Below, one piece after another: positions 4,516 through 30,799 of a stretch of DNA of 33,611 nt (its first letter is position 1; every line of letters begins with the position of its first letter). The stretch comes from Nitrospirota bacterium (GTDB lineage: Bacteria > Nitrospirota > Nitrospiria > Nitrospirales > UBA8639), in assembly GCA_003696975.1 (NCBI GenBank), contig RFGT01000017.1, positions 1 through 33,611 of the forward strand. Reading direction: 5' to 3'. The notes below the pieces were generated by a model. It saw nothing but the letters and a program-made list of their open reading frames with translations, was not told where the DNA came from and searched no databases. Made by a program: the position numbers and the translations under genes.

Positions 4516-5520
4516 CTACAGACAGGCCGTCTCCTGTTGGGGTTGCGAATGACCAGCCTCCTGTGCCCGCTCCAAGAGGTGATGGGCATGTGCGAGATTA
4601 GAATTGGCCTTTTCATAGAATGTGGGCTCGAGTTCAATGGCTTTCTGAAAACAGGAAACTGCCCGTTGAACTTCTCCTGCCTCCAGCAAAGTTACCCCCA
4701 CATTATTGAACGCTTTCGCAAGATTTGTTCCACGTCTGAAGGCATCAAAGGCTTCCGAGAAGCGCCCCAATTTTGACAAGGCTAATCCCAAGTTGTTGGC
4801 AACCTTGGGAGAAGTGGCTCCGGCTTGAAGCGCGCGGTGAAAGGCATTCACGGCTTCACGATATTGCCCATTCAAGTAATACGCCATGCCGAGATTATTC
4901 AGCACCGTGGGCTCCGCGGGTTTGATCGCCAGAGCGGCCTGATATGATTTGATGGCCGAAAGATGGAGGTGCCGGCGATCAGCCAGAATGCCTAAGTAAT
5001 TGTGAGCCATCCACAACTGGGGGTCGCGTTCAAGTGCGCGGTGGAATTCTTCAGCCGCTTCTTGTTCCTTATCCATCTGGAGCAAGGCTTCCCCCCGCCC
5101 AATATATGCCATGGCAAAGGTTGGATCCTCATCCAGCACCTGACCCAGTTGAATGTAGGCTTCCTCGGGAAACCCTTTTTCCAGCAACAACATGCCGTAT
5201 TTGTACCGAGTCGTTGTCCTAGCGGGTTCCAGCTTGAGGGCCTGTTCATATTGGGTGATGGCCATGGGGAGATTATCTTGGCTGACGTACGTGTCCCCGA
5301 GTTTGTCGAGCTCCTCTGCCGTCATCTCCGGCAATTTTTTGAGTGTGTCGTCTTGGGGAGCAATGCCAGCTTTCTGATGCTCGATAATAGGCTGATAATG
5401 TTCTTGTACAGTCAGAAATGGAACTGAGACGGTTTTTTTTGTGGTGGTTTCCGTGGCACACCCCATGAGCGCTGCACTGAGAAACCCAGCTAGCATAAAG
5501 CAATTGAATCTCATATCCAT
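4516..5520 (-). CDS. tadD: Tad pilus TPR lipoprotein TadD
   Basis: Lipobox AALMGCATET, many TPRs, last gene of the tad locus. Start at 5520 supported by an AAGGAG-type SD. Confidence 0.82.
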   Translation of the reverse strand: MDMRFNCFMLAGFLSAALMGCATETTTKKTVSVPFLTVQEHYQPIIEHQKAGIAPQDDTLKKLPEMTAEELDKLGDTYVSQDNLPMAITQYEQALKLEPARTTTRYKYGMLLLEKGFPEEAYIQLGQVLDEDPTFAMAYIGRGEALLQMDKEQEAAEEFHRALERDPQLWMAHNYLGILADRRHLHLSAIKSYQAALAIKPAEPTVLNNLGMAYYLNGQYREAVNAFHRALQAGATSPKVANNLGLALSKLGRFSEAFDAFRRGTNLAKAFNNVGVTLLEAGEVQRAVSCFQKAIELEPTFYEKANSNLAHAHHLLERAQEAGHSQPQQETACL

Positions 5521-5565
5521 GATGTCACTCCTTGTCCATTCGCATGTCGATTCTAAAAAATCCAC

Positions 5566-6516
5566 CTACTGGCTAAACATGGGAAAGATATCTCGCATTA
5601 GTTTGATGATCCCAGGACCCATGATGACGATGAGTAAGCTGGGGAAAATAAACAAGATCAGCGGAAACATGAGCTTCACGGGCAACTTGGCCGCTAGTTC
5701 CTCGGCTTTGAGGCGGCGATTGAGCCGCATCGAGTCGGAGTGCACACGAAGGGCTTGGGCAATGCTTGTTCCGAACCGGTCGGTTTGAATGAGCAAGGCG
5801 ATGAGACTTCGAATGTCCTCCAATTCAGTTCGTTCTCCGAGGTTGCGCAGGGCTTGTTCACGGGTGAATCCAGCTCGAAGCTCGAGACTTACGAGTTGAA
5901 ACTCTTCAGCCAGCTCTGGGTGGCCAAGTTTGATCTCTTCACCTACTCGCGCAATGGCTTGATCGAGCCCCAGTCCCGCCTCCACGCAAACCACCATTAA
6001 ATCCAACGCGTCGGGAAACCCTTTGATGAGCTTCTCCTTCCGATGGGTTATGGCCCAACTCAACCAGAATTGGGGGGCATAAAATCCGGCCAATGCACAG
6101 GCGAGTCCGGTTAAAGGGATCCAATTAGCCGGAAGGGTTCTCAGATACTCCGCTCCAAACACAAAGAACAGTCCCACCATGCACAACGCCAAGAAGAGTT
6201 TCGTACCGAGGAAGATAATCGGGGCTTGTGCTCCTCGATACCCTGCGGTGATCAGAGCGCGTCGCAGGCGCGACGTTTCGGTTTGGTCTTTGGGTTTGGT
6301 GGCTTGGCCGAGTCGCTCCAGGATCTTTAAAAACACTGTGTTGAGATATGCAATCCCCTTTTCAGTCTGGGTGACTTCTACGGTCGGACTCTTTCCACGG
6401 ATACGTTCGCCCCATGCCCGTACGCGCTGCCTGGATCCCATCAGCGAGTAGGCCCACAGCATGAAGAACAGGGTCACAGCAAATACCATCAGACTGATCA
6501 GCAGTGCGTGATCCAT
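5566..6516 (-). CDS. tadC: Type II secretion system F domain protein TadC
   Basis: T2SSF region (GFPDALDLMVVCVEAGLGLDQAIARVGEEI...LELRAGFTREQALRNLGERT) with C-terminal TMs. Start at 6516 (MDHALLISL) avoids the long overlap with tadB seen for the 6561 start. Confidence 0.9.
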   Translation of the reverse strand: MDHALLISLMVFAVTLFFMLWAYSLMGSRQRVRAWGERIRGKSPTVEVTQTEKGIAYLNTVFLKILERLGQATKPKDQTETSRLRRALITAGYRGAQAPIIFLGTKLFLALCMVGLFFVFGAEYLRTLPANWIPLTGLACALAGFYAPQFWLSWAITHRKEKLIKGFPDALDLMVVCVEAGLGLDQAIARVGEEIKLGHPELAEEFQLVSLELRAGFTREQALRNLGERTELEDIRSLIALLIQTDRFGTSIAQALRVHSDSMRLNRRLKAEELAAKLPVKLMFPLILFIFPSLLIVIMGPGIIKLMRDIFPMFSQ

Positions 6517-6526
6517 CACTTGGCTC

Positions 6527-7501
6527 CTAGACCTGAATCGCCACCATCTTCTTGGTGACAACCGCCCCGATGCTCATCATCGTGCCTCCGACAATTAACA
6601 TGGTTCGGCCGAGTGGATCCTCAATGAGAAGTCCCATGTACGAGGGATTGAGATGCCACAAGAGTGCGCCAATGCCAAACGGAAGCAAAAACAAGACAAT
6701 CGCCGACAGTCGACCTTCCGCCGAAAGGGCTTTCACCCGACCCAACAATTCAAACCGCTGCCGAATCAGCCGACTGATTGATTCGAGAATTTCGGCGAGA
6801 TTCCCGCCGGTCTCTCGTTGAACAATGAGCGAGGTAATAAAAAAACGCAGGTCGACACATTCAATACGGGTCGAGAGGTTTCTTAAGGCTTCCGCGACGT
6901 CGATGCCAAAGGAGATCTCCTCGACAACCCTGTTGAACTCCGGGCCGATTGGCTCAGGGAATTCATCCCCGACCATCTTCATGCCCACGGTAAAAGCATG
7001 GCCCGCGCGCAGCGCCCGCGATACCAGATCCAAAGCGTCGGGTAGTTGACGATGAAACTCCTGAAGCCGCCGCGTTCGCTTTCGATACATATAAAGAAAA
7101 GGCAGCAAGCCCGCGCCGACTGCATACAGGAGCATGATCAGCGGGGCACTTTGGTTCATGATGGCAACCATCAAACCAGTGACTGCGAGAACGCCGGACA
7201 ACAGCAAAAAAACACCAAGGGGCATGGTGCTGTTGGCTTGCTGAAGCAGGTGCTCAATGGAAGCAAGACGGGGGATTCTGGAAAGCACGGCATCCATCCA
7301 GGGAATGCCGCTTGTGGCTCGCTTGCGCAAGATCTCGACACGTTCGGCGGGATTCCGGTGACGGGTGGGTTGAACGGTTCCTCGCAGACGCCGCTTGAGT
7401 TTCTTGGTGCGCGGGTTGAGAAACGCATGATAGGCATAGAAGCCCCCCTCGATAAGCAAGACCACAGTGAGAAACATGCCGAGGCTGATGAGAATAGTCA
7501 T
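6527..7501 (-). CDS. tadB: Type II secretion system F domain protein TadB
   Basis: QLPDALDLVSRALRAGHAFTVGMKMVGDEF...RRQTGGNLAEILE-type T2SSF signature, next to tadC. Confidence 0.9.
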   Translation of the reverse strand: MTILISLGMFLTVVLLIEGGFYAYHAFLNPRTKKLKRRLRGTVQPTRHRNPAERVEILRKRATSGIPWMDAVLSRIPRLASIEHLLQQANSTMPLGVFLLLSGVLAVTGLMVAIMNQSAPLIMLLYAVGAGLLPFLYMYRKRTRRLQEFHRQLPDALDLVSRALRAGHAFTVGMKMVGDEFPEPIGPEFNRVVEEISFGIDVAEALRNLSTRIECVDLRFFITSLIVQRETGGNLAEILESISRLIRQRFELLGRVKALSAEGRLSAIVLFLLPFGIGALLWHLNPSYMGLLIEDPLGRTMLIVGGTMMSIGAVVTKKMVAIQV

Positions 7502-7534
7502 GATGGATCCGCCGGTTCTCTCGTCACGCTTGGC

Positions 7535-8884
7535 CTACACTTCATAAACCTTATCGGGGTCAAAAAGGTCTGGGGAAAGATCAATCCCCAAGGCTCGGAA
7601 TTTATCAGCGAACTTGGGCCGAACTCCTGTGGCGTAAAATCGGCCCTTGACCTTTCGGTCTGGCGTGAGACCGGTTTGTTCAAAAGTAAAAATTTCTTGC
7701 AGCGTAATGATTTCTCCTTCCATCCCGGTAATTTCTTGTAAGCTTGTCAGTTTACGCGATCCGTCAGAGAGTCGGGTCATTTGAATGATCACATCAATGG
7801 CGGAGCTAATATAATGTCGAAGGCCTTTGGTGCTGATATTCAATCCCGCTAACGCTACAAGAGTTTCGACTCGAGTTAAGGCATCGCGGGGTGAGTTGGC
7901 GTGGATCGTAGTCAGCGAGCCGTCATGTCCGGTGTTCATGGCTTGCAACATATCCAAGGTTTCCGGACCTCGGACCTCACCCATGACGATGCGATCCGGC
8001 CGCATCCGCAGGCAGTTTTTCACCAGATCTCGCTGGGTGATCTCTCCCTTGCCTTCCACGTTGGCCGGTCTGGTCTCGAGCCGCACCACATGTTCCTGCC
8101 GGAGCTGCAGCTCCGCAGCATCCTCGATGGTGATGATGCGTTCGTCATTGGGAATAAATCCTGACAAGATATTGAGAATGGTCGTTTTTCCACATCCCGT
8201 TCCCCCGGCGATCAAGACATTCAGCCGAGCCTTCACAATGCCTTCGAGCAATTCCGCAATCTCTGGAGTCAAGGATCGCTTCTCGATCAAATCCTCAATT
8301 TGGAGTTTGTCCTTGCTGAATTTCCGGATGGAGATGGCTGAACCATCAAGCGCCAGAGGTGGAATGATGGCATTCACACGTGAGCCATCAGCCAGACGGC
8401 AATCACACATGGGGGTGGATTCGTCGATCCGACGTCCCACCGCCGAAACGATCTTTTCGATCACTTTCCGCAAGTGGGCTTCGTCGCGAAATCGGATATT
8501 GGTGAGCTCTAATTTGCCCCCACGTTCAACATAGACCTGATCGGCACGGTTTACCAAGATATCATTGACGGTAGGATCTTGGAGGAGAGGCTCCAAAGGG
8601 CCGAGACCGAGGACCTCATTCTGAATATCGGTGATGAGCTGTTCGCGCTCTCGAACATTGAGGGGGGCGGCTTCTTGTTCCAGAAGGTGCTCGACCAGAT
8701 TGCTCAGCTCGACCTTCAGCAGTTCCGGATTCAGTTTTGACACAACCGACAAATCGAGAGACTCGATGACTTGCCGGTGCAAGCGATGCTTTAAGTCATT
8801 GAAATCGGTGACGGCAACGCCAACTTCATCCCAATTTGGATTAAACATGGTCCATTGCTGCCTGTGAATGGGTGTTGTGATCAT
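7535..8884 (-). CDS. cpaF: Tad secretion ATPase CpaF/TadA
   Basis: Walker [75 protein letters not shown]. Alternative start [10 protein letters not shown] at 8848. Confidence 0.96.
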
Positions 8885-8893
8885 GAGTGGTTG

Positions 8894-10165
8894 TTACGAC
8901 GCCTTGGCTCGTGCAAGTGCCGTGTGACCGGTCATGATCTCTCGAACCCGACCGAGCCATGAGGAACTGGTTTTGCGTGGTGTCGCGGGGGCAAGAACTG
9001 TCTCGGCCATCTCCTGAAACGCCTTGGCGATAGCGGTGCGAGGTGCTGCCGTGATGACGGGCGTGCCATTGTTGATCGCACTACTCACCGTGGGATAGTC
9101 ATTAGGAATCGTCTGGAACGTTTTGAATTTTAAGGCTTCCTCCGTTTCTCGCAGGATCTCTTTTTCTGCGGGTGCATACCGATTGATGACGACTTTAATT
9201 TTGTCAGGCTCACATCCCGAACCCTTCAGTAAATCGAGGACGCGTTTGGTCCGATGCACCACGGGTACAATCAACGTAGAAACCACAAAGACCGTGGTGG
9301 CGGTTTCCAAGACTTTCTTGGCCGTGATGTCTAACACATGCCCGCAGTCCACCACGATATAGTCGAACAGAGAATGAAGCAATTTCAGTGTAGCCTCCAC
9401 GCATTCCGGCGTGAGGCGCCCGGAGCTGAGATCGTCATAGCCGGACGGCAACACATGCAATCCTGAATCGTGTTGGGCGAGGATTCGCATGAGCAAGGCC
9501 GTATCGAGACGCGAGACATCCGACCCAATGTCCCGAAAACTCGTGGTTGTCTGTAAATCAAAAAACAACGAAAGATCGCCAGAATGTTGATTAACCTCAG
9601 CGAGAACCACAGTCTGGTCTTGCCTCGCTTGCTGAAGTGAGAGGGCGACATTGGCCGCGATCGTGGTGGTGCCCACTCCTCCTTTTCCCCCGAAAACCGC
9701 TAGAATCTCCCCCATCTTTTGCCGGGCGGGTTCATGGGTTGAGGCCTGACAGCGATCGAGAAACTTTGACAGTGCCTTTATGACCTCATGAGGCTGGATG
9801 GGTTGCGGAAAGAACTCCTTCACTCCGGCCCGAAGTGCTTCTAGGAGAATGGAAGGATCCATATGAGATGCAGTGAGGAAAATTTCTCGCTGGTCTTCTT
9901 TGTTTCGCAGGATCGTGTGGATAAAGGAAAATGTCTGCGCAGGATCTTCGTCCAGCTCAAGGATGAGAAGCTTGGGCGCCTCTGCGTCTTGGGGAGATTT
10001 GAGGTAGAGTCCGCGCTGAGTGCGAATCGCCTCCTCAAAGACCTGCCGTGCTGATTCGGTTCTTACAGCGAGTTCAATCCCGATGCTTCCGTGGGATCGG
10101 CGAGAGGGCCGTGCCTGGTCCTTGTCCCCTTTCAATCGAACCGGTTTCCATTCTCGTTGGCTCAT
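8894..10165 (-). CDS. cpaE: Tad pilus assembly ATPase CpaE/TadZ (ParA/MinD-like with receiver-like N-terminus)
   Basis: Deviant Walker A AVFGGKGGVGTTTIAANVAL; receiver-like N-terminal domain; position in the tad locus. Confidence 0.92.
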   Translation of the reverse strand: MSQREWKPVRLKGDKDQARPSRRSHGSIGIELAVRTESARQVFEEAIRTQRGLYLKSPQDAEAPKLLILELDEDPAQTFSFIHTILRNKEDQREIFLTASHMDPSILLEALRAGVKEFFPQPIQPHEVIKALSKFLDRCQASTHEPARQKMGEILAVFGGKGGVGTTTIAANVALSLQQARQDQTVVLAEVNQHSGDLSLFFDLQTTTSFRDIGSDVSRLDTALLMRILAQHDSGLHVLPSGYDDLSSGRLTPECVEATLKLLHSLFDYIVVDCGHVLDITAKKVLETATTVFVVSTLIVPVVHRTKRVLDLLKGSGCEPDKIKVVINRYAPAEKEILRETEEALKFKTFQTIPNDYPTVSSAINNGTPVITAAPRTAIAKAFQEMAETVLAPATPRKTSSSWLGRVREIMTGHTALARAKAS

Positions 10166-10527
10166 GGCTTCCCTCCTCTCCTATTCGGGGTAGCAGTATA
10201 GGGAGGTTGTGTAAAGAATCCGCGATAGCGCGTGAATGCCTGATGGGCGGCTTGGCCATCTAGTGTTGTCACAGGGTCGAGGCTCACCTTTGCGTTGGGG
10301 TTCAAAATTTGGCGGTCTCGTGCAAGGCGGAACGAGTCGCCAAAATCTTCGGCGAGCACGGTTGGTCGCGTTGCATGCGGCCAAAGAATTTGATCGCTTT
10401 TATCCATGGCAATGGGGCGCTGCCATTCGTGGGGTGACATGATAGGCCACACCGTGCATCCACTCAGCACCATAATTAATGCCCCACTCACCGTCTGGAA
10501 GATTCTCTTATATGACATGTCTCGCAT
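10162..10527 (-). CDS. Small lipoprotein at the CpaD position of the tad locus
   Basis: Lipobox MVLSGCTVWP; EDFGDSFRLARDRQILNPNAKVSLDPVTTLDGQAAHQAFTRYRG resembles the C-terminal part of CpaD-like proteins. ATGA overlap with cpaE. Confidence 0.72.
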   Translation of the reverse strand: MRDMSYKRIFQTVSGALIMVLSGCTVWPIMSPHEWQRPIAMDKSDQILWPHATRPTVLAEDFGDSFRLARDRQILNPNAKVSLDPVTTLDGQAAHQAFTRYRGFFTQPPYTATPNRRGGKP

Positions 10528-10545
10528 GAGATTTCCTCACGTCGT

Positions 10546-12060
10546 TTACGGCACCAAATGTCCAAAAGGCCCCTCTAGTCCTCCCTCAATGGGTACAGGG
10601 AGAAGCTGTGGGGTGGATTCTTGTGCCACAAGTTGCTCATTGTTGCCGGATTCCGAACGCGGCTTTGACTGGCCATTGGATGCAGAGATGACTTTTTTGG
10701 CTCCTTCCATATAACCCATCAGCATAAATTCAAAATCATTCGGCTCGAGGTAGGAATCCGTTGGAAGAGATTGAGTCTTGATGTCCAATGGTTTGACCAG
10801 GCGTGGTGTTACGATGACCACCAGCTCCGTTTCATTCTTCTGAAAGGAGGAACTCCGAAACAACGCTCCCAGGATGGGAATGTCGCCCAAGACCGGGTAT
10901 TTGTTGATGGCCTCTTTCACATTGTCTTGAATGAGTCCGGCAATGGCAAAGCTTTGACCATCTTTGAGCTCGATGACGGTTTCCGCTCTGCGCATGGTAA
11001 TCGCCGGAACCGTGATGCCGCCGGTCACGCTGATACCGCCGGAAAAATCCAGTTCTGAAACTTCCGGGGCCACCTTCATACTGATTCGACCATTGCTCAA
11101 CACAATAGGGCTAAAGTTAAGCCGCACCCCGAATTTCTTGAATTTGATCGTCGTCACACCAAACGATTGCGGAACCGGGATGGGAAATTCTCCGCCGGCC
11201 AAGAAGCTTGCCTCCTGGCCGCTTAACGCCACCAAAGTGGGCTCGGCCAGTACTTTCGTCAGATTGTTTTGTTTCAAGGCATCGATGAATCCTGTCCAAG
11301 TCATGTTGCCGCTTGCGACACGGAACAGGAAGTTGGGAGTAAAAATGAAGCCGAATGGATCAGCGCCTCCACTAGCCGAATCAAGCGTCGCACTTTTCAA
11401 GGGTACCACAGTGCTGAGGCTGTTCAAGGTGGTGACCCCAAACCCGTTTCCATCATTTCTCACAATTCCAAAGTTGACGCCAAGCCGCTTCAGAAGACTT
11501 CGTTGCATTTCAGCGACGCGGACTTCCAGCATGACCTGTTGGACGCCTGAGACCTGCAAGAGATTTTTCACCTTCTTCGGGGCGTAGGTTTCCGCCAGTT
11601 CCACCACTTGGGTGACGATGTCCGGACCGGAAACCGAGCCGGAGAGCGTGATGTAGTCGTGACTGCCGCGCACCTTGATATTTGTTTCCTCGGGAAACAA
11701 TTCGTGGATTTGCGCTTTCAACCGACTGAGCTCGGGCGTGACGATGAGATCATACATGGCGAAGACCTTTCCTGCCTTGTCCCAAAAGATCAGCGTTGTC
11801 GCCCCGATGGTTTTGGCAAATACGTAGACTTGGGTCGTGGAGAGAACAAGGGCTTCGGCAATCTCAGGGTTAGCTAATGAAGCACGCTTGATCGGACGAT
11901 CGCTGTTCAACACGATAGACTTCCCTACGACCAATTCCAGTTCCTGGGGAGCCTCCATGGCCGTGATCTGTTGGGTCAGTGCAACCGTCTGAGGAGGATC
12001 AAGTCCCAACAACGCGAGTGCCATGCAACTCACTGTCCAGAAAAACACACAATGTCTCAT
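10546..12060 (-). CDS. cpaC: Tad secretin CpaC/RcpA
   Basis: N-terminal LELVVGKSIVLNSDRPIKRASLANPEIAEALVLS; secretin domain EASFLAGGEFPIPVPQ...RRAETVIELKDGQSFAIAGLIQDNVKEAINKYPVLGDIPILGALFRSSSFQKNETELVVIVTPRLV. Confidence 0.96.
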   Translation of the reverse strand: MRHCVFFWTVSCMALALLGLDPPQTVALTQQITAMEAPQELELVVGKSIVLNSDRPIKRASLANPEIAEALVLSTTQVYVFAKTIGATTLIFWDKAGKVFAMYDLIVTPELSRLKAQIHELFPEETNIKVRGSHDYITLSGSVSGPDIVTQVVELAETYAPKKVKNLLQVSGVQQVMLEVRVAEMQRSLLKRLGVNFGIVRNDGNGFGVTTLNSLSTVVPLKSATLDSASGGADPFGFIFTPNFLFRVASGNMTWTGFIDALKQNNLTKVLAEPTLVALSGQEASFLAGGEFPIPVPQSFGVTTIKFKKFGVRLNFSPIVLSNGRISMKVAPEVSELDFSGGISVTGGITVPAITMRRAETVIELKDGQSFAIAGLIQDNVKEAINKYPVLGDIPILGALFRSSSFQKNETELVVIVTPRLVKPLDIKTQSLPTDSYLEPNDFEFMLMGYMEGAKKVISASNGQSKPRSESGNNEQLVAQESTPQLLPVPIEGGLEGPFGHLVP

Positions 12061-12112
12061 AATCTGTGCTCTTTCATTGCTGATGATCTATCACCTAGCT
12101 GATAGACTTGGT

Positions 12113-12937
12113 TCAAAATTTCACGAGTGTTCTCCTTCCTCCTGCAATGATCTCGACACGCTCCCGGCGGCTCCGGCGCGTCTGGGGATTTGTGGGCTTG
12201 GGACGATAGGAGGAAATGAGAGTACGGTTTGTGGCCCCTTTGGTCAGCTCGGGTTTTGTATTCAATGGGCTCCGTAGCGCGAGTCGCAATTTTCCCTCGT
12301 TTGAGGCCAATGCCAACTTTTCCGCTTCCTTGAGTGAGACCTCAACGGTGATCACTTTTACGGGTTTAGGCTTTTCGCCGGGCCCTTGTCGCTCCATCTG
12401 GGTTCCCGTGGCCAGCACAAGTGTGTTCTCTAGAACAGTCTTTGTGATCGTCCCACCCCGTCGGCGAGGATTTTTCAAGGTCACCATGATATCCACGCGG
12501 TCACCAGGTTTAACAAATCCGGGCAGTCCAACGACCTCATCCACGCGGACGGCCATAGCGCGTTTGTCAGGGCTCAAGATTCCCACCACCCCTCCATGCC
12601 GGACGTCCTGCGGTGCGAGCTTGGATTCGAGAATGGGCTCATACTGGTTGAGTGGTGTGAGCACGATACGTCCTATTAATGCCTTGGGATCTTGGAACGC
12701 CCCTTCAGGAACATAAGTGTCCGGATAGTCCACAACATGAATCATGTCTGGAGTGAGAGGGGTGCCCCATGCAATAGCTGTACTGGCGACTGCAACTGGC
12801 ACGCCCGTCCGCTGGACCTCTTCCGCCTGAACGGGCTCGGGACTTTGCTGCTCCAGCCATCGATAGGTCAGAATGGTGGTGCCCAGACCTATGGCGAGTG
12901 CCAAGCCAAGAAACAGCACAGAACGATTCTGAAACAT
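12113..12937 (-). CDS. cpaB: Flp pilus assembly protein CpaB/RcpC
   Basis: N-terminal TM, SAF domain (VPVAVASTAIAWGTPLTPDMIHVVDYP), RAMAVRVDEVVGLPGFVKPGDRVDIMVT. AGGGAGGA SD upstream. Confidence 0.94.
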   Translation of the reverse strand: MFQNRSVLFLGLALAIGLGTTILTYRWLEQQSPEPVQAEEVQRTGVPVAVASTAIAWGTPLTPDMIHVVDYPDTYVPEGAFQDPKALIGRIVLTPLNQYEPILESKLAPQDVRHGGVVGILSPDKRAMAVRVDEVVGLPGFVKPGDRVDIMVTLKNPRRRGGTITKTVLENTLVLATGTQMERQGPGEKPKPVKVITVEVSLKEAEKLALASNEGKLRLALRSPLNTKPELTKGATNRTLISSYRPKPTNPQTRRSRRERVEIIAGGRRTLVKF

Positions 12938-12974
12938 TGAAGGCGTTCCTCCCTCTAAGGGTTGAGCCGATCAG

Positions 12975-12999
12975 AAAAAATGGCCAGACGTGGGGCCAT
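12975..12999 (-). terminator. Intrinsic-terminator-like hairpin between cpaA and cpaB
   Basis: Minus strand: ATGGCC-CCACGTCT-GGCCAT followed by a T6 run (TTTTTTCTG): a 6-bp perfect stem plus U-tract, about 40 nt upstream of the cpaB start. Confidence 0.55.
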
Positions 13000-13039
13000 C
13001 CCCTTTATCGGTTGAACTATTGATGACTTTAGAGAAAAT

Positions 13040-13084
13040 GCTGATGGTTGCGAACGGGACCGCGATAGCGGCAAACCACTAAGC
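13040..13084 (-). promoter_or_regulatory. Structured leader element upstream of the cpaB attenuator
   Basis: Minus strand GCTTAGTGGTTTGCCGCTATCGCGGTCCCGTTCGCAACCATCAGC: outer TGGTT(T)GC/GCAACCA pairing around an inner CCGC-TATC-GCGG hairpin. Confidence 0.35.
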
Positions 13085-13111
13085 TGTGAGGAGGGTCGAT
13101 GGACCCTGTGA

Positions 13112-13642
13112 TCAAGCAATTCCCAACCAGTACCATGCTTTGTAGGTCAGAGTCCCCAACGCGATTACTAGTCCATAACGCAATTTGGGTTGCGACGAAG
13201 AAGACGAGTCAGCAAAAGCCACGCGGACCTTTCCTGTGAGAAGCAGGGTCTTGCCAATCAGGCCAATCCAGCAAAAAGTTCCCTTGATCCCGGCGTGGTG
13301 GATCATCATACCAATGGCATACACGCCACCTAACAACGCCGTCATTAAAAACACCAGAAAGACATCCATGGGGCCGAGAAATGCACCCACTGCCCCGAGC
13401 AGTTTCACATCGCCGGCCGCCATGCCACCGAGCATGTAAAAACCGAGCAGGAGTCCTATGCCGAGAAACAGCCCTTCGGCACTGAAGAGAAATCCAGAGG
13501 CGCCATGCATGAGCGTGTGGCCGATTACTCCCGTCAACATCGCTGGAAACGTGAGGATGTTGGGAATTTTGTGCCAGCGCCAATCCGTGACAGCCGCACA
13601 CAGCACAACACTGGTGACCAATACGCTCAGAGCTAGTTCCAT
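13112..13642 (-). CDS. cpaA: A24-family prepilin peptidase CpaA/TadV
   Basis: DWRWHKIPNILTFPAM and GDVKLLGAVGAFLGP, containing the two catalytic Asp motifs; about 176 aa, multi-TM. Confidence 0.94.
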   Translation of the reverse strand: MELALSVLVTSVVLCAAVTDWRWHKIPNILTFPAMLTGVIGHTLMHGASGFLFSAEGLFLGIGLLLGFYMLGGMAAGDVKLLGAVGAFLGPMDVFLVFLMTALLGGVYAIGMMIHHAGIKGTFCWIGLIGKTLLLTGKVRVAFADSSSSSQPKLRYGLVIALGTLTYKAWYWLGIA

Positions 13643-13645
13643 TCT

Positions 13646-13840
13646 CTAACTGCCGCTTCCTCCTCCTGTCCCTCCTGGGAATCCATCGATAGCGGTCATA
13701 AAGAGTTGGATCACCATTTGGGAAACGTTAAACAAAGCTGTTACAATCGCCGCGGCAATAAACGAGGAGAGAATTGCATATTCCAATGCCGTGGCCCCCT
13801 CTTCCTCGAACACAAACTGTCTGATTGCCTGGAGAATCAT
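13646..13840 (-). CDS. flp: Flp family type IVb pilin (second copy)
   Basis: MILQAIRQFVFEEEGATALEYAILSSFIAAAIVTALF...GGTGGGSGS; G^ATALEY processing site. Start at 13840 with AAAGGAG SD. Confidence 0.93.
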   Translation of the reverse strand: MILQAIRQFVFEEEGATALEYAILSSFIAAAIVTALFNVSQMVIQLFMTAIDGFPGGTGGGSGS

Positions 13841-13930
13841 GTGCGCTCCTTTTGCTCGTCTCATGCGGGAAGGACGATCCATGGTTTGGCTCCATAGACC
13901 GTCCCGTTATCCGTTTCACTGTGGTGGCTA

Positions 13931-15316
13931 TCATTGAATAAGCCGCAACTTGATATTCGTGGCAATTTTTTGAAACAGGGCTTCGAGTTCCGCCGAATCG
14001 GGTGTGTAATATTCAAATGCCGGCCCGCTGGCGATCGCACTTAAAAACTCCTGATCGACATTACCAAGCCCAATGGTATAGATCTTTACTCCCTTCGCCT
14101 TAAGCTCCGCCGCATGATCAATGGCCATTTGTTTGGTAATGGCTTCGGCATAATTTTTCATCCGCCACTTGCTGATGTTGCACTGCTCAGGATCCGAGGT
14201 ATTCAACAAATCGACATAGTAGACATCGAGAAACTCGCTATATCCTGAGACCCCATACACTGGATCCTCCAAAACCCACCATTTGGTATTGTAATACCCT
14301 TTGGGTGGAGACCCCGACTGACATGAGGTTGAACTCTTGGGTAGGCCATCGCCTGTTCTATACTGGTATACATTCAAATAGGTAAATTGCTCGTCTGGCT
14401 TCATGAGCCGAATATTCCAATCTGCCGCATAGCCGACCGCGTCGTAATCGACCCCGTTTCTTGTGAACATGCCACGGAAGGCCGTGGGATTGCCATCCGA
14501 GAAGAAAATGAGGAATTGCTGGACCCGCTCGTCACCGGGCACGCCGGTCTGGTCGGTAAACCCATAGGGACCGTCGGCCTGATCAAGTGCGTCCTCGGTA
14601 TTGGTCCCTCCGCTGGCGACGAGACTGTCGATGGCGGCCTTCATGGGTTGAACGAAATTGGGCCCCAACGGGAATTTAACTTCCACACCCGAAGCGAAGG
14701 CGATTAACGCAAACTTGTCATTTGCTTGGGTTTGAGTAAAGAAATCGAGAAAACTTTTGGCGGCCACCTTCAGATCTTCGATAGGCTGCCCAGCCATGGA
14801 CCCTGATTCATCTAAGACCATGACAATCTCGACATCTCGCTGCTGCGCAGCCCCAAATGCGCTTACGCCGGTCGTCGTTAGTGGATTTTCTTGGCCTACA
14901 GGCGGCTCACCGGCAAAGGCTTGAGCAATCTGGTTGAGCACGTTGGCGCTGGCGGTCACATAGACTTTCCCTTGTTCGCCGATCGTTCCCGTGATCTGAA
15001 CGGTCCCATCAGTTCCGAACAGGCCGGGTTTGAAATTCGCTTGCCCGACTTGTGTCATCAGGGTTTCAGCGTTGACATAGGGGTTGGAGATATTTTTGGC
15101 GCCAACCAGGGCGGCGGCATCCACGGCTTTAGACAATTCTGCACGGACCACATACCAGCGCCCTACCTCGATACCTAGAGCGATAAAGCCTAGCATGGTC
15201 AACAAACTGAAAGCCATTGTGACCATGAACGCTCCCCGCTGATTGCCTAATGCGTGAAAGCCATGGTGCTGAGAAGAGTGTTGGTTCCTATGGCAAATGT
15301 TCTTGAATCGCTTCAT
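13931..15316 (-). CDS. TadG-like pilus-associated protein with von Willebrand factor A domain
   Basis: TadG-type N-terminus NQRGAFMVTMAFSLLTMLGFIALGIEVGRWYVVRAELSKAVDAAALVGAK, then vWA MIDAS VMVLDESGSMAG. Start at 15316 (MKRFKN) preferred over 15388. Confidence 0.9.
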   Translation of the reverse strand: MKRFKNICHRNQHSSQHHGFHALGNQRGAFMVTMAFSLLTMLGFIALGIEVGRWYVVRAELSKAVDAAALVGAKNISNPYVNAETLMTQVGQANFKPGLFGTDGTVQITGTIGEQGKVYVTASANVLNQIAQAFAGEPPVGQENPLTTTGVSAFGAAQQRDVEIVMVLDESGSMAGQPIEDLKVAAKSFLDFFTQTQANDKFALIAFASGVEVKFPLGPNFVQPMKAAIDSLVASGGTNTEDALDQADGPYGFTDQTGVPGDERVQQFLIFFSDGNPTAFRGMFTRNGVDYDAVGYAADWNIRLMKPDEQFTYLNVYQYRTGDGLPKSSTSCQSGSPPKGYYNTKWWVLEDPVYGVSGYSEFLDVYYVDLLNTSDPEQCNISKWRMKNYAEAITKQMAIDHAAELKAKGVKIYTIGLGNVDQEFLSAIASGPAFEYYTPDSAELEALFQKIATNIKLRLIQ

Positions 15317-15508
15317 GTGCAACCTCATCAAACAACGGACACTCGATGAATGTTCCCTGTACCGCCGCGACGCACGGGCGCAGTTCATAAGGGGCGCAGG
15401 TGAGTCAATAGCCGGTTCAGGTCACAAAGGTTTCCTCTGTTTGTTCAACGACGGCAAGATAAGCAACGACAACATGACCAACATTGTGCACCTGTCAAGA
15501 CAAGAATG

Positions 15509-16108
15509 TTAGAAAATCGCTGTACTCCCAATGAGCATGGCATCGGGGATATTGTCAGCGTCAGTGTCGATATTGAGCAGTGGTTGTCCCGAGTTATCCA
15601 GAAGATTTTCCAACGGGGTGAGCGGCTTGTGCGCATAGAACACTTTGACGACTGTGAATTGAGACAGGGGAGAGGTCTGGATTGTGTCATCGAATTTCAA
15701 CAGATCGTACAAATTCTGCGGGAGGTCACATGTGGCGCTCATCGCTGGAGAGACCACGGCCTCCCCTGAAAGTGTGCCGCTCTCTTGTACGGTGCAAACA
15801 GGATCAGGAGCTGCTGCGGATTCTCCCGCATCCACTTTGGCAATGTAGATCTTGTACAGTTCAGGATGGGTTTCGAACTCCAGTGGCGCGCTGGACGCTG
15901 CAAGGAGGTTCAACAAATCGGGGCCGTTTTTTAAGTCGCGAGAAGCCAGGCTTCCCCCCTCACGGCTGATGTTGGTGACCACAGCTTGCGCCTGAATGAG
16001 TGAACCGAAGTCGATAATGACGAAGGCCATGATCAGCAACATGCTGGCCACAACGGCAAATTCAAGGGTGGCCATACCTTTTTGTGACTGTATACGCGGT
16101 GTACCCAT
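15509..16108 (-). CDS. tadE: TadE-like pseudopilin
   Basis: QKGMATLEFAVVASMLLIMAFVIIDFGSLIQAQAVVTNISREGG; TadE-like N-terminal hydrophobic helix with Glu. Confidence 0.88.
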   Translation of the reverse strand: MGTPRIQSQKGMATLEFAVVASMLLIMAFVIIDFGSLIQAQAVVTNISREGGSLASRDLKNGPDLLNLLAASSAPLEFETHPELYKIYIAKVDAGESAAAPDPVCTVQESGTLSGEAVVSPAMSATCDLPQNLYDLLKFDDTIQTSPLSQFTVVKVFYAHKPLTPLENLLDNSGQPLLNIDTDADNIPDAMLIGSTAIF

Positions 16109-16114
16109 ATGGTT

Positions 16115-16642
16115 TCATACCTCCTGAAACAATTCATTCCGATATGTCCCTTCAGCCCAGAGCGTGATATGCCCATCATTAGAAAACAATTGTCCAATAA
16201 GGGGGATAAGGAACTCATGCTCATAGCTGGTTTTGATCCGCATGTAATCGGCAGGATTGCCGGCATTGGGTGCTAGCGTCTCCCACCCTGTAGGATCTTC
16301 ATAGTTACTGCCGACCTTGAAGATCCAAACTTGGACGGCATTTGGATCCATGGCTAAGCTGGCTTTTTCTTTGATGGTCTGGATGATTGATTCTTCACGG
16401 GAGAGGGGATTGCCTTGGTCGTCCATCAATGTCTCGCCGACAAGCGCCAACCGCATGCCCTCTCGTGTAGCGAACTGCAAAGTATGTTGATGGAAGAAAT
16501 ACCAGCCAAATTCCATGATCCCTGTCAGCAACAAGAAGAACGGGAGTATCAGGAACGCCATTTCTACGGTCAAATTTCCGCTTTGATAGCGCCAATGGGA
16601 TGTGCTAGGTTGTCTCCATATCTTGTTCCGTGGCACGTTCAT
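16115..16642 (-). CDS. tadE: TadE-like pseudopilin
   Basis: YQSGNLTVEMAFLILPFFLLLTGIMEFGWYFFHQHTLQFATREGMRLALVG; TadE-like family. Confidence 0.86.
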   Translation of the reverse strand: MNVPRNKIWRQPSTSHWRYQSGNLTVEMAFLILPFFLLLTGIMEFGWYFFHQHTLQFATREGMRLALVGETLMDDQGNPLSREESIIQTIKEKASLAMDPNAVQVWIFKVGSNYEDPTGWETLAPNAGNPADYMRIKTSYEHEFLIPLIGQLFSNDGHITLWAEGTYRNELFQEV

Positions 16643-16855: not shown

Positions 16856-17044
16856 TCAGCTCCCGCTTCCTCCGCCGGCCGCTGAGCCGATGGTGTTGGC
16901 TACATTGGTGAAAGCAGTATTTAGAGAACCTTGTAAGAGTTGGACCGCCGTGACGATCCCGGCAGCGATCAAAGCTGCCAGCAATCCGTATTCCAAGGCG
17001 GTAGCTCCCTCTTCATCGTGTAAAAATTGCATGATAGACCTCAT
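16856..17044 (-). CDS. flp: Flp family type IVb pilin (first gene of the tad operon)
   Basis: MRSIMQFLHDEEGATALEYGLLAALIAAGIVTAVQLLQGSLNTAFTNVANTIGSAAGGGSGS; AAGGAG SD 7 nt before ATG at 17044. Confidence 0.95.
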   Translation of the reverse strand: MRSIMQFLHDEEGATALEYGLLAALIAAGIVTAVQLLQGSLNTAFTNVANTIGSAAGGGSGS

Positions 17045-17081
17045 AGGACATCTCCTTTCGGGCACAATGGGCTAGACATTC

Positions 17082-17119
17082 GTCGGTAGGATGTGGCCCT
17101 GTTTTTCATCGCTACCAAC
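17082..17119 (-). promoter_or_regulatory. Leader hairpin between riboswitch A and flp
   Basis: Minus strand GTTGGTAG-C-GATG AAAAACAGGGCCA CATC-CTACCGAC: 12 bp with one bulge and one G-U pair. Confidence 0.5.
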
Positions 17120-17135
17120 TGTCCCCTTGACGCTA

Positions 17136-17230
17136 TTCCTCTTCCGGCAACCCGGCTGTCAGGTCAGAGGCCTGATCCGTGGCTTTGCGCCCCCGCTTCG
17201 CAACGGGTTTGCCTTTATCGGGAAGGGGCA
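17136..17230 (-). promoter_or_regulatory. GEMM-I (c-di-GMP-I) riboswitch aptamer A, upstream of flp
   Basis: Minus strand CCCCTTCCCGATAAAGGCAAACCCGTTGCGAAGCGGGGGCGCAAAGCCACGGATCAGGCCTCTGACCTGACAGCCGGGTTGCCGGAAGAGG. Matches GGCAAACC ... GNRA-capped P2 (CCCGTT-GCGA-AGCGGG) ... GCGCAAAGCC ... P3 (TCAGG/CCTGA) ... GCCGGGTTGCCG, closed by a P1 helix. Confidence 0.88.
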
Positions 17231-17398
17231 CCCGATTGGGAATATGTTTGGCGGTCATAGCTAAGTGTTCGTTCACCCAGGCGAATCGGTTGGTCTGCGC
17301 GATATGCTGGTCCGTTGTCCGGGGAATTGAGTAGACAGCGGTCTTATGTGATGAAAGAGAAGGCGGGCAATGCCCCTGGGTTCGGCACCGAAGTCCGG

Positions 17399-17590
17399 TT
17401 AATCCGTCATCTCCCCTGTGTAGGACATGTCGCCGAGTGTTGAGAGAACGCACATGGCGTCCTGCAGGCTGTCTGAATCTGTGGTGATTGCCAATCGCGC
17501 TCCATGGACGGAACAGGAACTGAGGGTTCGTTGAAACGATTGGATGTGCCCACCCGGAGCCAGGGAAGGGGCGTGGGTCTGAATACTCAA
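17399..17590 (-). CDS. Possible small protein between the two riboswitches (frame uncertain; SD-preceded ATG is at 17612 in another frame)
   Basis: TTG-start frame SIQTHAPSLAPGGHIQSFQRTLSSCSVHGARLAITTDSDSLQDAMCVLSTLGDMSYTGEMTD. A strong SD (AGAAGGAGGAGAACCTC-ATG) lies at 17612 in a different frame. Confidence 0.3.
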   Translation of the reverse strand: MSIQTHAPSLAPGGHIQSFQRTLSSCSVHGARLAITTDSDSLQDAMCVLSTLGDMSYTGEMTD

Positions 17591-17612
17591 AAGCTACGTA
17601 TCCCCGCGACAT

Positions 17613-17645
17613 GAGGTTCTCCTCCTTCTGATGGTGCAGGAGAAC
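17613..17645 (-). promoter_or_regulatory. Shine-Dalgarno-sequestering hairpin (expression platform of riboswitch B)
   Basis: Perfect inverted repeat GTTCTCCT (minus strand, 17645-17638) with AGGAGAAC (17623-17616) placing the SD immediately upstream of ATG 17612 in a stem. Confidence 0.6.
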
Positions 17646-17667
17646 TCCATCCCGTGGGACTTTTCGG

Positions 17668-17760
17668 TTCCTTCCTTCGGTAACCCGGCTATCAGATTCC
17701 TCTGACCCGTGGCTTTGCGTCCCCGCCTCACGACGGGTTTGCCGTTTCGGGAAGGAGTTC
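17668..17760 (-). promoter_or_regulatory. GEMM-I (c-di-GMP-I) riboswitch aptamer B
   Basis: Minus strand CTCCTTCCCGAAACGGCAAACCCGTCGTGAGGCGGGGACGCAAAGCCACGGGTCAGAGGAATCTGATAGCCGGGTTACCGAAGGAAGG. Consensus GGCAAACC, P2 CCCGTC-GTGA-GGCGGG, GGACGCAAAGCC, P3 TCAGA/TCTGA, GCCGGGTTACCG, P1 TCCTTC/GAAGGA. Confidence 0.92.
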
Positions 17761-17801
17761 CTGCATATGAGCGTTTCACCGGATGCGAACGTCTGTCCGG
17801 T

Positions 17802-17832
17802 ATTATCGGTGATATCTCAGCAAAACTTGCAA
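17802..17832 (-). promoter_or_regulatory. Candidate sigma70-type promoter for the riboswitch/tad transcript
   Basis: Minus strand TTGCAA-N19-GATAAT (-35 at 17827-17832, -10 at 17802-17807), about 40 nt upstream of aptamer B. The spacer is long. Confidence 0.35.
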
Positions 17833-28006: not shown

Positions 28007-30799
28007 TTAGAATTCAGAGCCCCACCAACCCCGAAGCAATATGGTCATCTCGTCTGCTGATAAGGGCCGTGAACAGAGATAGCCTTGCACGTGGTGACAC
28101 CCCTGGCTTCGGAGAAAAGCCACCTGTTCAGGGGACTCTACGCCCTTCGCAATGAGGGGTCGCTGGAGCCTATGACTCAGATCGAGACAGGTGCGAAAGC
28201 CTGTAACGGCCTCAGGATTGTGAGGCAATTGTGAAACGATGGTCGAAGCGAGCTTCAAGCTATGGAGAGGAAGGGGCTCGAGTAAGCCTGCAGGAAACTC
28301 CTGGCACTCGCAATCGTCGATGATGAGTTCAAGACCTAGTGAGGCCAGTGTCGCTCCCCACGATTCCATGGAGACTCGGCGGTTCATAAAAGTGGATGCA
28401 GGAATTTCCAGTTTGATGGCCTGAGGTGCAATGTGGGTATCCGCCAGCACTTGGCGGATGACGGTGGAGTAGGCGTCCTCTTGCCCAGGGTCCACAAGGA
28501 GATTGACGGTCAAGGGGGCCTGAAAGAGTCCTTGAGCTTGCCATTGAAGGTTCTGAAGGCAAGCCGCGCGCAGGACCCATTCCTGGATTGTCATCAGGAG
28601 ATGGTGTTCTTGTGCCAAGGGAATAAATTGTTGAGGAAAGATCAGTCCCAACTCTGGATGCTGCCAGCGGATGAGGGCCTCAATCCCAATAAGCATCCCC
28701 GTGTGCAAGTTCACGAGAGGTTGGAAGTGCAAGAGAAATTCTTGCCGATTCCAGGCGTGGTGTAGGCTCCTTTGCAACAGAAGGCGTTCGAACACTTGGG
28801 CATTTAACTCGTCGGAGACAAATTGATAGCAATTCCCGCCTTTTTCCTTCGCGCGGTACATAGCCCGGTCGGCATGGGTCAATAGACTCTGAGGATCGGT
28901 GGTGTCGAGAGGATACAAAGCAATCCCTAGGCTTGCTGTGGTGGAAATTGATGTGCCAGCGAGTTCCATGGGGTGTGCGACAGCCTCGAGGACTTTGCGG
29001 GCTACGTGACCGGCATCCTGGCCCCGTTCCAAGTCCTGGAGAATCAATACAAATTCATCTCCACTCCATCGGGCCACCGTATCGGTTTCGCGTACGCAGC
29101 GACGGAGCCGCTCTGCCACAATCTTGAGCAAGACATCTCCTTGTTCGTGCCCTAAGGAATCATTGATCGGTTTGAAACGATCCAGATCGAGGAAGACCAC
29201 AGCGACATTGAGTCCATGGCGCCTGGCATGGGCCAGTGCCTGTTTGAGGCGATCGTGAAACATGGTGCGATTGGGAAGGTCCGTGACGGGGTCATAATGC
29301 GCGAGATAGAAAATCCTGGCTTCCGTTTCTTTGCGAGCCGTAATGTCCTGGTGGATGGCTACGAAATGCGTCACCTCTCCGGTTTCATTACGAAGGGGCG
29401 TGAGCACTTGCTCCACAAAAATGGTCTGTCCGTCTTTGCGTTTCTCGACGAACTCATGCCGCCACGCCTGCCCTTTTGTTTGGTGACGTCGGGCTTGCCG
29501 CAGGATCGAGCGAACTTTGCCCGATTTCAAAAATGGCGGGACGCGGCCGATGGCTTCTGCCGCGGTATGACCAGTGAGACGAGTATAGGCATCGTTGATC
29601 CACTCGATACGGCCAAAAGGGTCAGTGATCAAGATAGCATGCTCGGCGGACGCCAAGACAGCTTCTTGCAAGCGGAGGCGTTCTCGATCCTTGGCCAGCG
29701 AGAGAGTGAGTGAGAGTTGAGCGGCCAATCGTTCGAACCAGGCAATGACTCCATCATTGAAGGCCTCGCGGTGTGGCGCACTCACGGTCAGGACGCCGAG
29801 CACCTGTTTATGAGTCTTGAGGGGCACCATCAGCATGGATTGCCACCCCAGCGCGAGGGTTTGTGCTACCCAGGGTTTCCAGGCTGGATCATCGCGCTGG
29901 ACGATATATGGTGTTTGGGTGGCAAGCACGTGGTTTAAGGGATTTCCGGTTTCCGCATGCCAGTCGGGAGAGGAGTTCAGAAGAAGAGGTGCCTGGTGGC
30001 CCGCAGCAGCCAGGATGGTCAGGGCGCCATCATCTTCTTGGTGAGTGATCCAGACCAGAGGATACCCAAACAGATGGTTCAACTGCTCACAGATCTGTGT
30101 GAACAGCCCTTGAATCTCTCGCCCTTCCAGAAGTTGTTCTCCAAGGTGGCGAAAGAGTTCGTTGGCAACATGGGCCCGTTGTTCTTCAGTGATATCACGA
30201 ATCAACCAATGAATGGCCGTCACATGTCCTGCCGGTTCTCTCAAGGCTGAGGCCGTCAGAGACGCGGGGAAGGCAGGGCGCTGTTTGGGGCAGACGGTGA
30301 GGTTCCATTCATGGGCCGTCTGGCCGCGTGCGAATTGCCGGAGCACCTGCTTGAGGTGTTGGTGATCACCAGGGTGGACAAACTCATGGAGTCGCATGCC
30401 CGTCAGTTGGCTCTGTTCCATCCCGACCAATTGCGCGGCGCGCCCGTCGGCGAGATAAATGCAGCCATGCTGATCAGTAATCAGATGGCCGTCGCATGCG
30501 CGTTCCTGATAGGAGGCTCTCCCTGGCAACCGGGTCGAGAGAAAGAATAGGTTGGGAGAAAGGAGGCGTGCATGATGTGCCTGAGACGTGGTCAAGAGTT
30601 TCGCGCTGAGCTGAGAGAGTGAAGAGTAGAGATGGCTGAGCTGCGCCAAGACCGCCTGACAGTCTTCACCGGATAAATTCGCCAGAGAGGCGGGCAGGTC
30701 TTCGGCAAATTGTTGGAACGCTTGGAGTTGCGAGAGGAGTTCCTGCGCCGCATTGGTCATGCGAGTCGTTGCGGTACGGGCACGTTGTGGGTGTGGCAT
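28007..30799 (-). CDS. PAS-GAF-PAS-GGDEF-EAL c-di-GMP signalling protein
   Basis: PAS (DGHLITDQHGCIYLADGRAAQLVGME), GAF, PAS (HAILITDPFGRIEWINDAYTRLTGHTAAEAIG), GGDEF (VARWSGDEFVLILQDL with RETD I-site), EAL (IGIEALIRWQHPELGLIFPQQFIPLAQ). Confidence 0.93.
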   Translation of the reverse strand: MPHPQRARTATTRMTNAAQELLSQLQAFQQFAEDLPASLANLSGEDCQAVLAQLSHLYSSLSQLSAKLLTTSQAHHARLLSPNLFFLSTRLPGRASYQERACDGHLITDQHGCIYLADGRAAQLVGMEQSQLTGMRLHEFVHPGDHQHLKQVLRQFARGQTAHEWNLTVCPKQRPAFPASLTASALREPAGHVTAIHWLIRDITEEQRAHVANELFRHLGEQLLEGREIQGLFTQICEQLNHLFGYPLVWITHQEDDGALTILAAAGHQAPLLLNSSPDWHAETGNPLNHVLATQTPYIVQRDDPAWKPWVAQTLALGWQSMLMVPLKTHKQVLGVLTVSAPHREAFNDGVIAWFERLAAQLSLTLSLAKDRERLRLQEAVLASAEHAILITDPFGRIEWINDAYTRLTGHTAAEAIGRVPPFLKSGKVRSILRQARRHQTKGQAWRHEFVEKRKDGQTIFVEQVLTPLRNETGEVTHFVAIHQDITARKETEARIFYLAHYDPVTDLPNRTMFHDRLKQALAHARRHGLNVAVVFLDLDRFKPINDSLGHEQGDVLLKIVAERLRRCVRETDTVARWSGDEFVLILQDLERGQDAGHVARKVLEAVAHPMELAGTSISTTASLGIALYPLDTTDPQSLLTHADRAMYRAKEKGGNCYQFVSDELNAQVFERLLLQRSLHHAWNRQEFLLHFQPLVNLHTGMLIGIEALIRWQHPELGLIFPQQFIPLAQEHHLLMTIQEWVLRAACLQNLQWQAQGLFQAPLTVNLLVDPGQEDAYSTVIRQVLADTHIAPQAIKLEIPASTFMNRRVSMESWGATLASLGLELIIDDCECQEFPAGLLEPLPLHSLKLASTIVSQLPHNPEAVTGFRTCLDLSHRLQRPLIAKGVESPEQVAFLRSQGCHHVQGYLCSRPLSADEMTILLRGWWGSEF

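Follow-up and report, generated by a model that had tools for sequence, protein, structure and literature searches.

A proposed two-sensor cyclic di-GMP leader of a Tad pilus operon in the Nitrospirales, with one aptamer inside a conserved leader gene

Results and Discussion

The leader of a Tad pilus operon in a Nitrospirota genome carries two GEMM-I (cyclic di-GMP, c-di-GMP) aptamers, and the downstream copy, A, forms the 3' end of a conserved protein-coding gene that itself stands behind the upstream copy, B. We consider it reasonably probable that the arrangement constitutes a two-sensor c-di-GMP leader of the operon, in which B would switch the leader gene while ribosomes and c-di-GMP would compete at A. 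The features discussed below are listed in the order in which they would be transcribed, with positions in the window (the whole 33,611-nucleotide stretch of DNA that was analysed).

17803-17828, minus strand: putative sigma-28 (FliA)-type promoter, AAGTTT-N14-CGATAA; exact, and the sole window match at no more than one mismatch (0.09 expected)
17754-17761, minus strand: 5' strand of aptamer B helix P0, GGAACTCC, pairing with 17648-17641
17675-17752, minus strand: aptamer B, GEMM-I/c-di-GMP-I; RF03167 70.5 bits, E 5.9e-15; RF01051 73.0 bits
17611-17650, minus strand: predicted sequestering hairpin that buries the Shine-Dalgarno and start of the leader ORF, its 5' arm being the 3' strand of P0; MFE -15.5 kcal/mol
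17133-17612, minus strand: conserved leader ORF of 159 aa with a strong Shine-Dalgarno, GAAGGAGGAGAA, its 3' end being aptamer A; supported by family protein matches, a coding test and open-frame statistics
17223-17228, minus strand: 5' strand of aptamer A helix P0, CCCCTT, pairing with AAGGGG at 17128-17123
17142-17222, minus strand: aptamer A, GEMM-I/c-di-GMP-I, within the coding sequence of the leader ORF; RF03167 68.9 bits, E 1.8e-14; RF01051 66.3 bits
17082-17119, minus strand: hairpin H, loop GGGC at 17099-17096, with a homologous hairpin in 20 g10-type leaders
17059-17065, minus strand: GTGCCCG, immediately 5' of the Shine-Dalgarno of flp; by covariation, the strand that pairs with the loop of hairpin H in a pseudoknot
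16856-17044, minus strand: flp, major pilin; PF04964, E 1.4e-16; ATG at 17044, Shine-Dalgarno AGGAG at about 17056-17052
4516-16642, minus strand: rest of the Tad locus by Pfam, namely two TadE, VWA/Tad, flp2, A24 peptidase, RcpC/CpaB, secretin, ParA-like ATPase, T2SSE, two T2SSF and a TPR protein

Two GEMM-I aptamers upstream of a Tad locus

At gathering thresholds, a cmscan search of the 33.6-kb window with Rfam 15 gave two RNA matches and no others, each of them on the minus strand. The original prediction had placed two GEMM-I elements there, and the covariance scores bear it out, both copies lying far above the RF01051 gathering score of 35 bits. The places it gave were right, with true extents that are slightly tighter (17752-17675 and 17222-17142), and its spacing of about 440 nt comes near the 452 nt found between the cmscan coordinates. 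Both aptamers lie upstream of flp, again as predicted. The joint presence of flp, TadE-like proteins, a prepilin peptidase, RcpC/CpaB, a secretin, a T2SSE ATPase and T2SSF identifies a Tad/Flp locus, and this locus is complete-looking. A second flp-like gene at window positions 13646-13882 (minus strand) scores 28.4 bits, just under the Pfam cut-off of 32.2, and four to five consecutive flp genes stand behind the riboswitch leader in L176 (G024) and L020/L039 (G016). A GGDEF domain is encoded in a long frame at 28832-29302 (minus strand) of the same window.

Both copies also exceed the gathering score of RF03167 (c-di-GMP-I-GGC, 59 bits), which is the best Rfam label for them. The 'GGC' of that name we take, on our own reading, to denote the G of CGC[G]AA; in the cmscan alignments both copies have an A at this site where the RF03167 consensus has G, and so depart from that model at this residue. 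The same alignments give the canonical G in GGCAAACC and the canonical C near the 3' end. The pocket residues G, A and C, which are presumably the c-di-GMP contacts G20, A47 and C92 in the numbering of Vibrio Vc2, are present in both window copies and invariant in aptamer A across 20 relatives. The 3',3'-cGAMP variant of GEMM-I has A at position 20, where both copies have G. An altered ligand specificity was considered on the strength of the 'GGC' label and rejected, the deciding residue being the canonical A in both copies. Since A is kept where RF03167 has G, c-di-GMP is the expected ligand of both copies, whose pockets look ordinary.

A third GEMM-I was found in the window genome, on another contig, by the RF01051 search. 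Across the family, GEMM-I matches occur in 34 of 50 genomes and in none of the fourteen genomes of genus g2 (G001-G014). A second large set of copies in the family (L010-L049 and others), with the translation PLSDKGKPIV.WGRKATGQ, does not precede flp in any stretch that was examined.

A conserved leader gene that runs through aptamer A

A short cistron had been proposed between the two aptamers. The ORF exists, but it has 159 codons (17612-17133) and does not end before aptamer A: its last ~30 codons are the aptamer, and its stop lies just past it. Protein searches found relatives of the leader protein in most GEMM-I-carrying genomes of this Nitrospirales family. When GEMM-I copies close upstream of flp were collected, 23 leaders with an aptamer A were obtained, and in 21 of these a frame is open through the aptamer, the same frame throughout. 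The breaks, an additional base immediately ahead of aptamer A in G019 (g7) and an out-of-frame deletion in G031, represent either assembly errors or real losses. In genus g10 the ORF has 76-91 codons and its ATG lies, in most cases, exactly six bases past the CGATAA of the promoter, as if the mRNA were leaderless.

Substitution in the ORF outside the aptamer is codon-structured, as expected of a protein-coding sequence. Upstream of the aptamer the BLOSUM sum is 1872, against -1618±1013 in shuffled columns (0 of 300 shuffles), no stops occur where 29 would be expected, and the synonymous fraction is 0.25 against 0.146; in the other two frames of this region the same test gives no coding signal. 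Overall the pN/pS ratio is 0.57, and within a close subclade it is 0.35. For the g10 codons past the aptamer the coding test yields no clear signal (39 of 300 shuffles).

The leaders of genus g8 consist of the promoter, one B-type aptamer, an ORF of 96-183 codons and flp, with no aptamer A, and the W...H...T.K motif by which the leader gene is recognised recurs in the ORF of four of the five g8 genomes, all without aptamer A. Because the ORF exists without aptamer A in g8, aptamer A is judged to overlap a genuine gene in g1, g9, g10 and G018 (g6), and a single run of bases appears to serve as both the coding sequence of a protein tail and an RNA sensor. By these comparisons the leader ORF is a real protein-coding gene, and one that evolves fast outside one motif. 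Neither Pfam nor NCBIfam has a match to its product, and neither a protein-profile search of 296 genomes of the phylum nor a scan of GTDB species genomes turned up the full ORF beyond the family; the matches that these searches returned outside the family are restricted to the aptamer-encoded part of the protein. Structure prediction (pLDDT 58) gives short helices and otherwise low confidence.

Aptamer B and the start of the leader gene

In all nine B-type leaders a helix P0 of 6-10 bp extends P1 of aptamer B, GAACTC 5' of the aptamer pairing with a downstream GAGTTC. In most of these leaders the downstream strand doubles as an arm of a hairpin over the ORF Shine-Dalgarno; P0 and the sequestering hairpin are mutually exclusive, and equivalent hairpins occur in relatives. 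For the window leader, folding predicts the hairpin state as the MFE (-73.5 kcal/mol), with P0 lying 4.0 kcal/mol higher; ligand binding could cover this gap, and an ON switch is accordingly predicted. Binding of c-di-GMP to aptamer B would favour P0 and thereby remove the strand that otherwise buries the Shine-Dalgarno of the leader gene, which would be translated once that site is freed. Aptamer B is thus most likely a translational ON switch for the leader ORF, a sign that we infer from structure. For the six B-type leaders of g8/g4, folding predicts P0 as the MFE to begin with, and their switch range is less certain.

Conserved RNA structures between aptamer A and flp

Between aptamer A and flp three conserved elements were recognised. 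The P0 helix of aptamer A pairs at 100% across 20 leaders, those of g10 and G018, and 3 of its pairs show compensatory changes; hairpin H is 91% paired in 20 g10-type leaders, with 4 compensatory pairs; and the pseudoknot between the loop (CGGGC) and GCCCG is 100% paired in relatives, including a double compensatory change in L026 from CGGGC/GCCCG to CGAGC/GCTCG. Taken together, the three show 8 pairs with double changes against 3.2±1.2 in shuffled alignments (0 of 500), and slid controls are 51% paired or less. Since g8 leaders, which lack aptamer A, contain a comparable hairpin with its partner strand, the hairpin-pseudoknot beside the ribosome site of flp is probably a control of flp separate from aptamer A. 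A permissive Rfam search assigned it (window 17059-17119) to no known family. The g10 ORF stop sits in the 3' arm of hairpin H, and stop positions vary elsewhere.

The original prediction had assigned one sensor to each cistron. For B this stands, insofar as its platform sits where it could govern translation of the cistron between the aptamers; a classical switch from A to flp is not established. An exhaustive search of the 20-sequence alignment found no conserved alternative helix linking aptamer A to the flp start that is decisive in all lineages, and a switch of this classical kind was set aside. The search returned P0, the aptamer helices, H, the pseudoknot, several short GGG/CCC options and a GTTGCC/GGCAAC anti-aptamer helix, the last confined to g10 by our own reading.

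Instead, a ribosome on the leader gene would have to unfold aptamer A. Because the 3' end of the gene is aptamer A, ribosome traffic and c-di-GMP binding would compete on the same RNA, just upstream of the point where the hairpin-pseudoknot meets the ribosome-binding site of flp, and the outcome of this competition may then be coupled to flp.

A sigma-28-type promoter and GEMM-I upstream of fliA

The sigma-28-type promoter sits directly upstream of aptamer B with the -35/-10 spacing of its class, and the motif abuts tad leaders in most relatives. A genome-wide pattern with N13-14 was uninformative for g10 and the search was rerun with N12; this form gave 47 matches in the 50 family genomes, 19 of them at tad leaders, and the reversed control gave 10. 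The leader is therefore described here as putatively transcribed from a sigma-28-type promoter, the sigma factor itself being suggested by the motif. Transcription would thus lead from this promoter into a leader with two c-di-GMP sensors and on into the Tad pilus operon.

The third GEMM-I of the window genome lies upstream of a gene for a FliA/WhiG-type sigma factor (TIGR02479, 218 bits, cut-off 189.6). GEMM-I upstream of fliA was found in 12 of the genomes examined, the window genome and eleven relatives, and in 11 of these 12 leaders an intrinsic terminator separates the aptamer from the gene, the exception being the window genome. In about half of the fliA leaders the aptamer strand GGGCGCA is clearly complementary to a terminator arm or to the stretch just before it. 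The terminators and this complementarity together suggest that c-di-GMP represses fliA, though support for such an OFF switch is moderate. The copy of the window genome (G000:C219:3084-3177; L003, L052) has no terminator but carries GTAGTTTGCC, which is perfectly complementary to the core sequence GGCAAACTAC of the aptamer. The window genome encodes five GGDEF domains and a flagellin. A site resembling TTAG-N15-CCGATAA, on the minus strand of L216 at about 2807 (G000:C124, about 17390), is close to the gene for this flagellin and precedes a GGDEF domain; it may be another connection from sigma-28 to the synthesis of c-di-GMP. The fliA GEMM-I, the sigma-28-type promoter, the hairpin-pseudoknot and the position of aptamer A inside a coding sequence formed no part of the original prediction.

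Alternative explanations

Three other accounts of the leader were weighed, which differ in what they make of the ORF. The ORF could encode a functional small protein and overlap aptamer A for compactness only, A being an ordinary flp riboswitch with no meaningful interplay with ribosomes. The protein motif is kept in genera with and without aptamer A, the region upstream of the aptamer is under purifying selection, and P0, the hairpin and the pseudoknot are conserved between aptamer A and flp, all of which this account would accommodate; against it, the search gave no conserved switch helix from A to the flp start, the predicted structure of the leader protein has short helices and otherwise low confidence, and any ribosome translating the ORF must cross aptamer A. 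We regard it as rather unlikely, though the strongest of the three.

Less probable still is a purely regulatory frame, whose translation would couple leader and flp by opening the hairpin or blocking Rho while the peptide has no role. The position of the g10 stop, in the arm of a hairpin whose loop pairs beside the flp Shine-Dalgarno, speaks for such coupling, as do the overlap of the ORF stop with the flp start in G020 and the fast evolution outside one motif, but stop positions vary in other g8 genomes and selection at the protein level is clear in the motif region. As for the ORF being a by-product, with the leader untranslated and its long open frames kept by RNA constraints, the aptamer consensus has no stop in the ORF frame and other GEMM-I copies of the family read through for 17-20 codons. 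Against it stand substitutions upstream of the aptamer that fall at third positions and are synonymous in the ORF frame only, the open frames in eight long leaders, whose joint probability is about 1e-18 under a first-order Markov model uncorrected for frame choice, and a strong Shine-Dalgarno or an ATG placed 6 nt past the promoter -10; this account we hold to be very improbable.

The two-sensor leader, with B acting on the leader gene and competition at A, thus stays the preferred reading. An extended form of it is offered as a tentative suggestion that may well be wrong. In this form aptamer A, overprinted on the coding sequence, would read ribosome traffic and c-di-GMP together: translation of the leader gene, turned on by c-di-GMP by way of aptamer B, would unfold A while the ligand competes for those nucleotides, making a pulse or threshold device for the Tad pilus. 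The sigma-28 promoter and the fliA GEMM-I would add an incoherent feed-forward loop, in which motile cells make the pilus mRNA and translate it once surface contact raises c-di-GMP.

Relation to known systems

GEMM-I, tandem GEMM-I, Tad loci and FliA regulons are all already known; the parts are of known kinds, and their arrangement appears to be new. The window copies resemble other members of RF01051 in score, secondary structure, canonical pocket and a downstream surface-appendage gene, and differ in that one lies inside a conserved coding sequence and the other is placed to control that sequence. From RF03167, their best label, they differ by the canonical A. Two aptamers in one leader with an ORF between them had been called an unusual layout. 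Tandem GEMM-I as such is not unusual, a survey of tandem c-di-GMP-I riboswitches having catalogued 347 doublets (PMC9481103), where a triple tandem in Bacillus thuringiensis is also cited. Like these, the window leader has two aptamers for the same ligand; unlike them, it has a 452-nt gap that holds most of a 159-codon ORF. Because the survey discarded pairs with a gap above 300 nt or an intervening ORF (PMC9481103), the window pair falls outside its definition, and a layout of this kind would have been left uncounted.

Frames that overlap riboswitch aptamers are known from the B12 riboswitches of Mycobacterium tuberculosis, with a uORF inside the aptamer of metE and uORF coupling in ppe2 (PMC11260477). 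There a translated frame overlaps the aptamer, much as is predicted here, and its translation affects downstream expression; the frame in the window, in contrast, is a family-conserved gene under protein-level selection, which enters the aptamer from upstream and stands behind a second aptamer of its own. In Bdellovibrio, FliA-type promoters extend to surface genes and occur beside a c-di-GMP riboswitch RNA (PMC3627812); that RNA has no conserved downstream gene, whereas in the window genome both fliA and tad lie behind GEMM-I. As far as the literature compared here shows, no GEMM-I aptamer was previously known to be conserved within a protein-coding gene that in turn stands behind a second GEMM-I.

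Significance

Riboswitches are normally catalogued in untranslated leaders. That many species retain a GEMM-I aptamer within the coding sequence of a conserved gene suggests that similar overlaps may have gone unnoticed in other systems, and the leader offers a testable system for competition between ribosome and aptamer on one RNA. For the poorly cultured Nitrospirales it leads to a proposed wiring of surface attachment, in which c-di-GMP would act on fliA and, together with sigma-28, on the Tad pilus leader.
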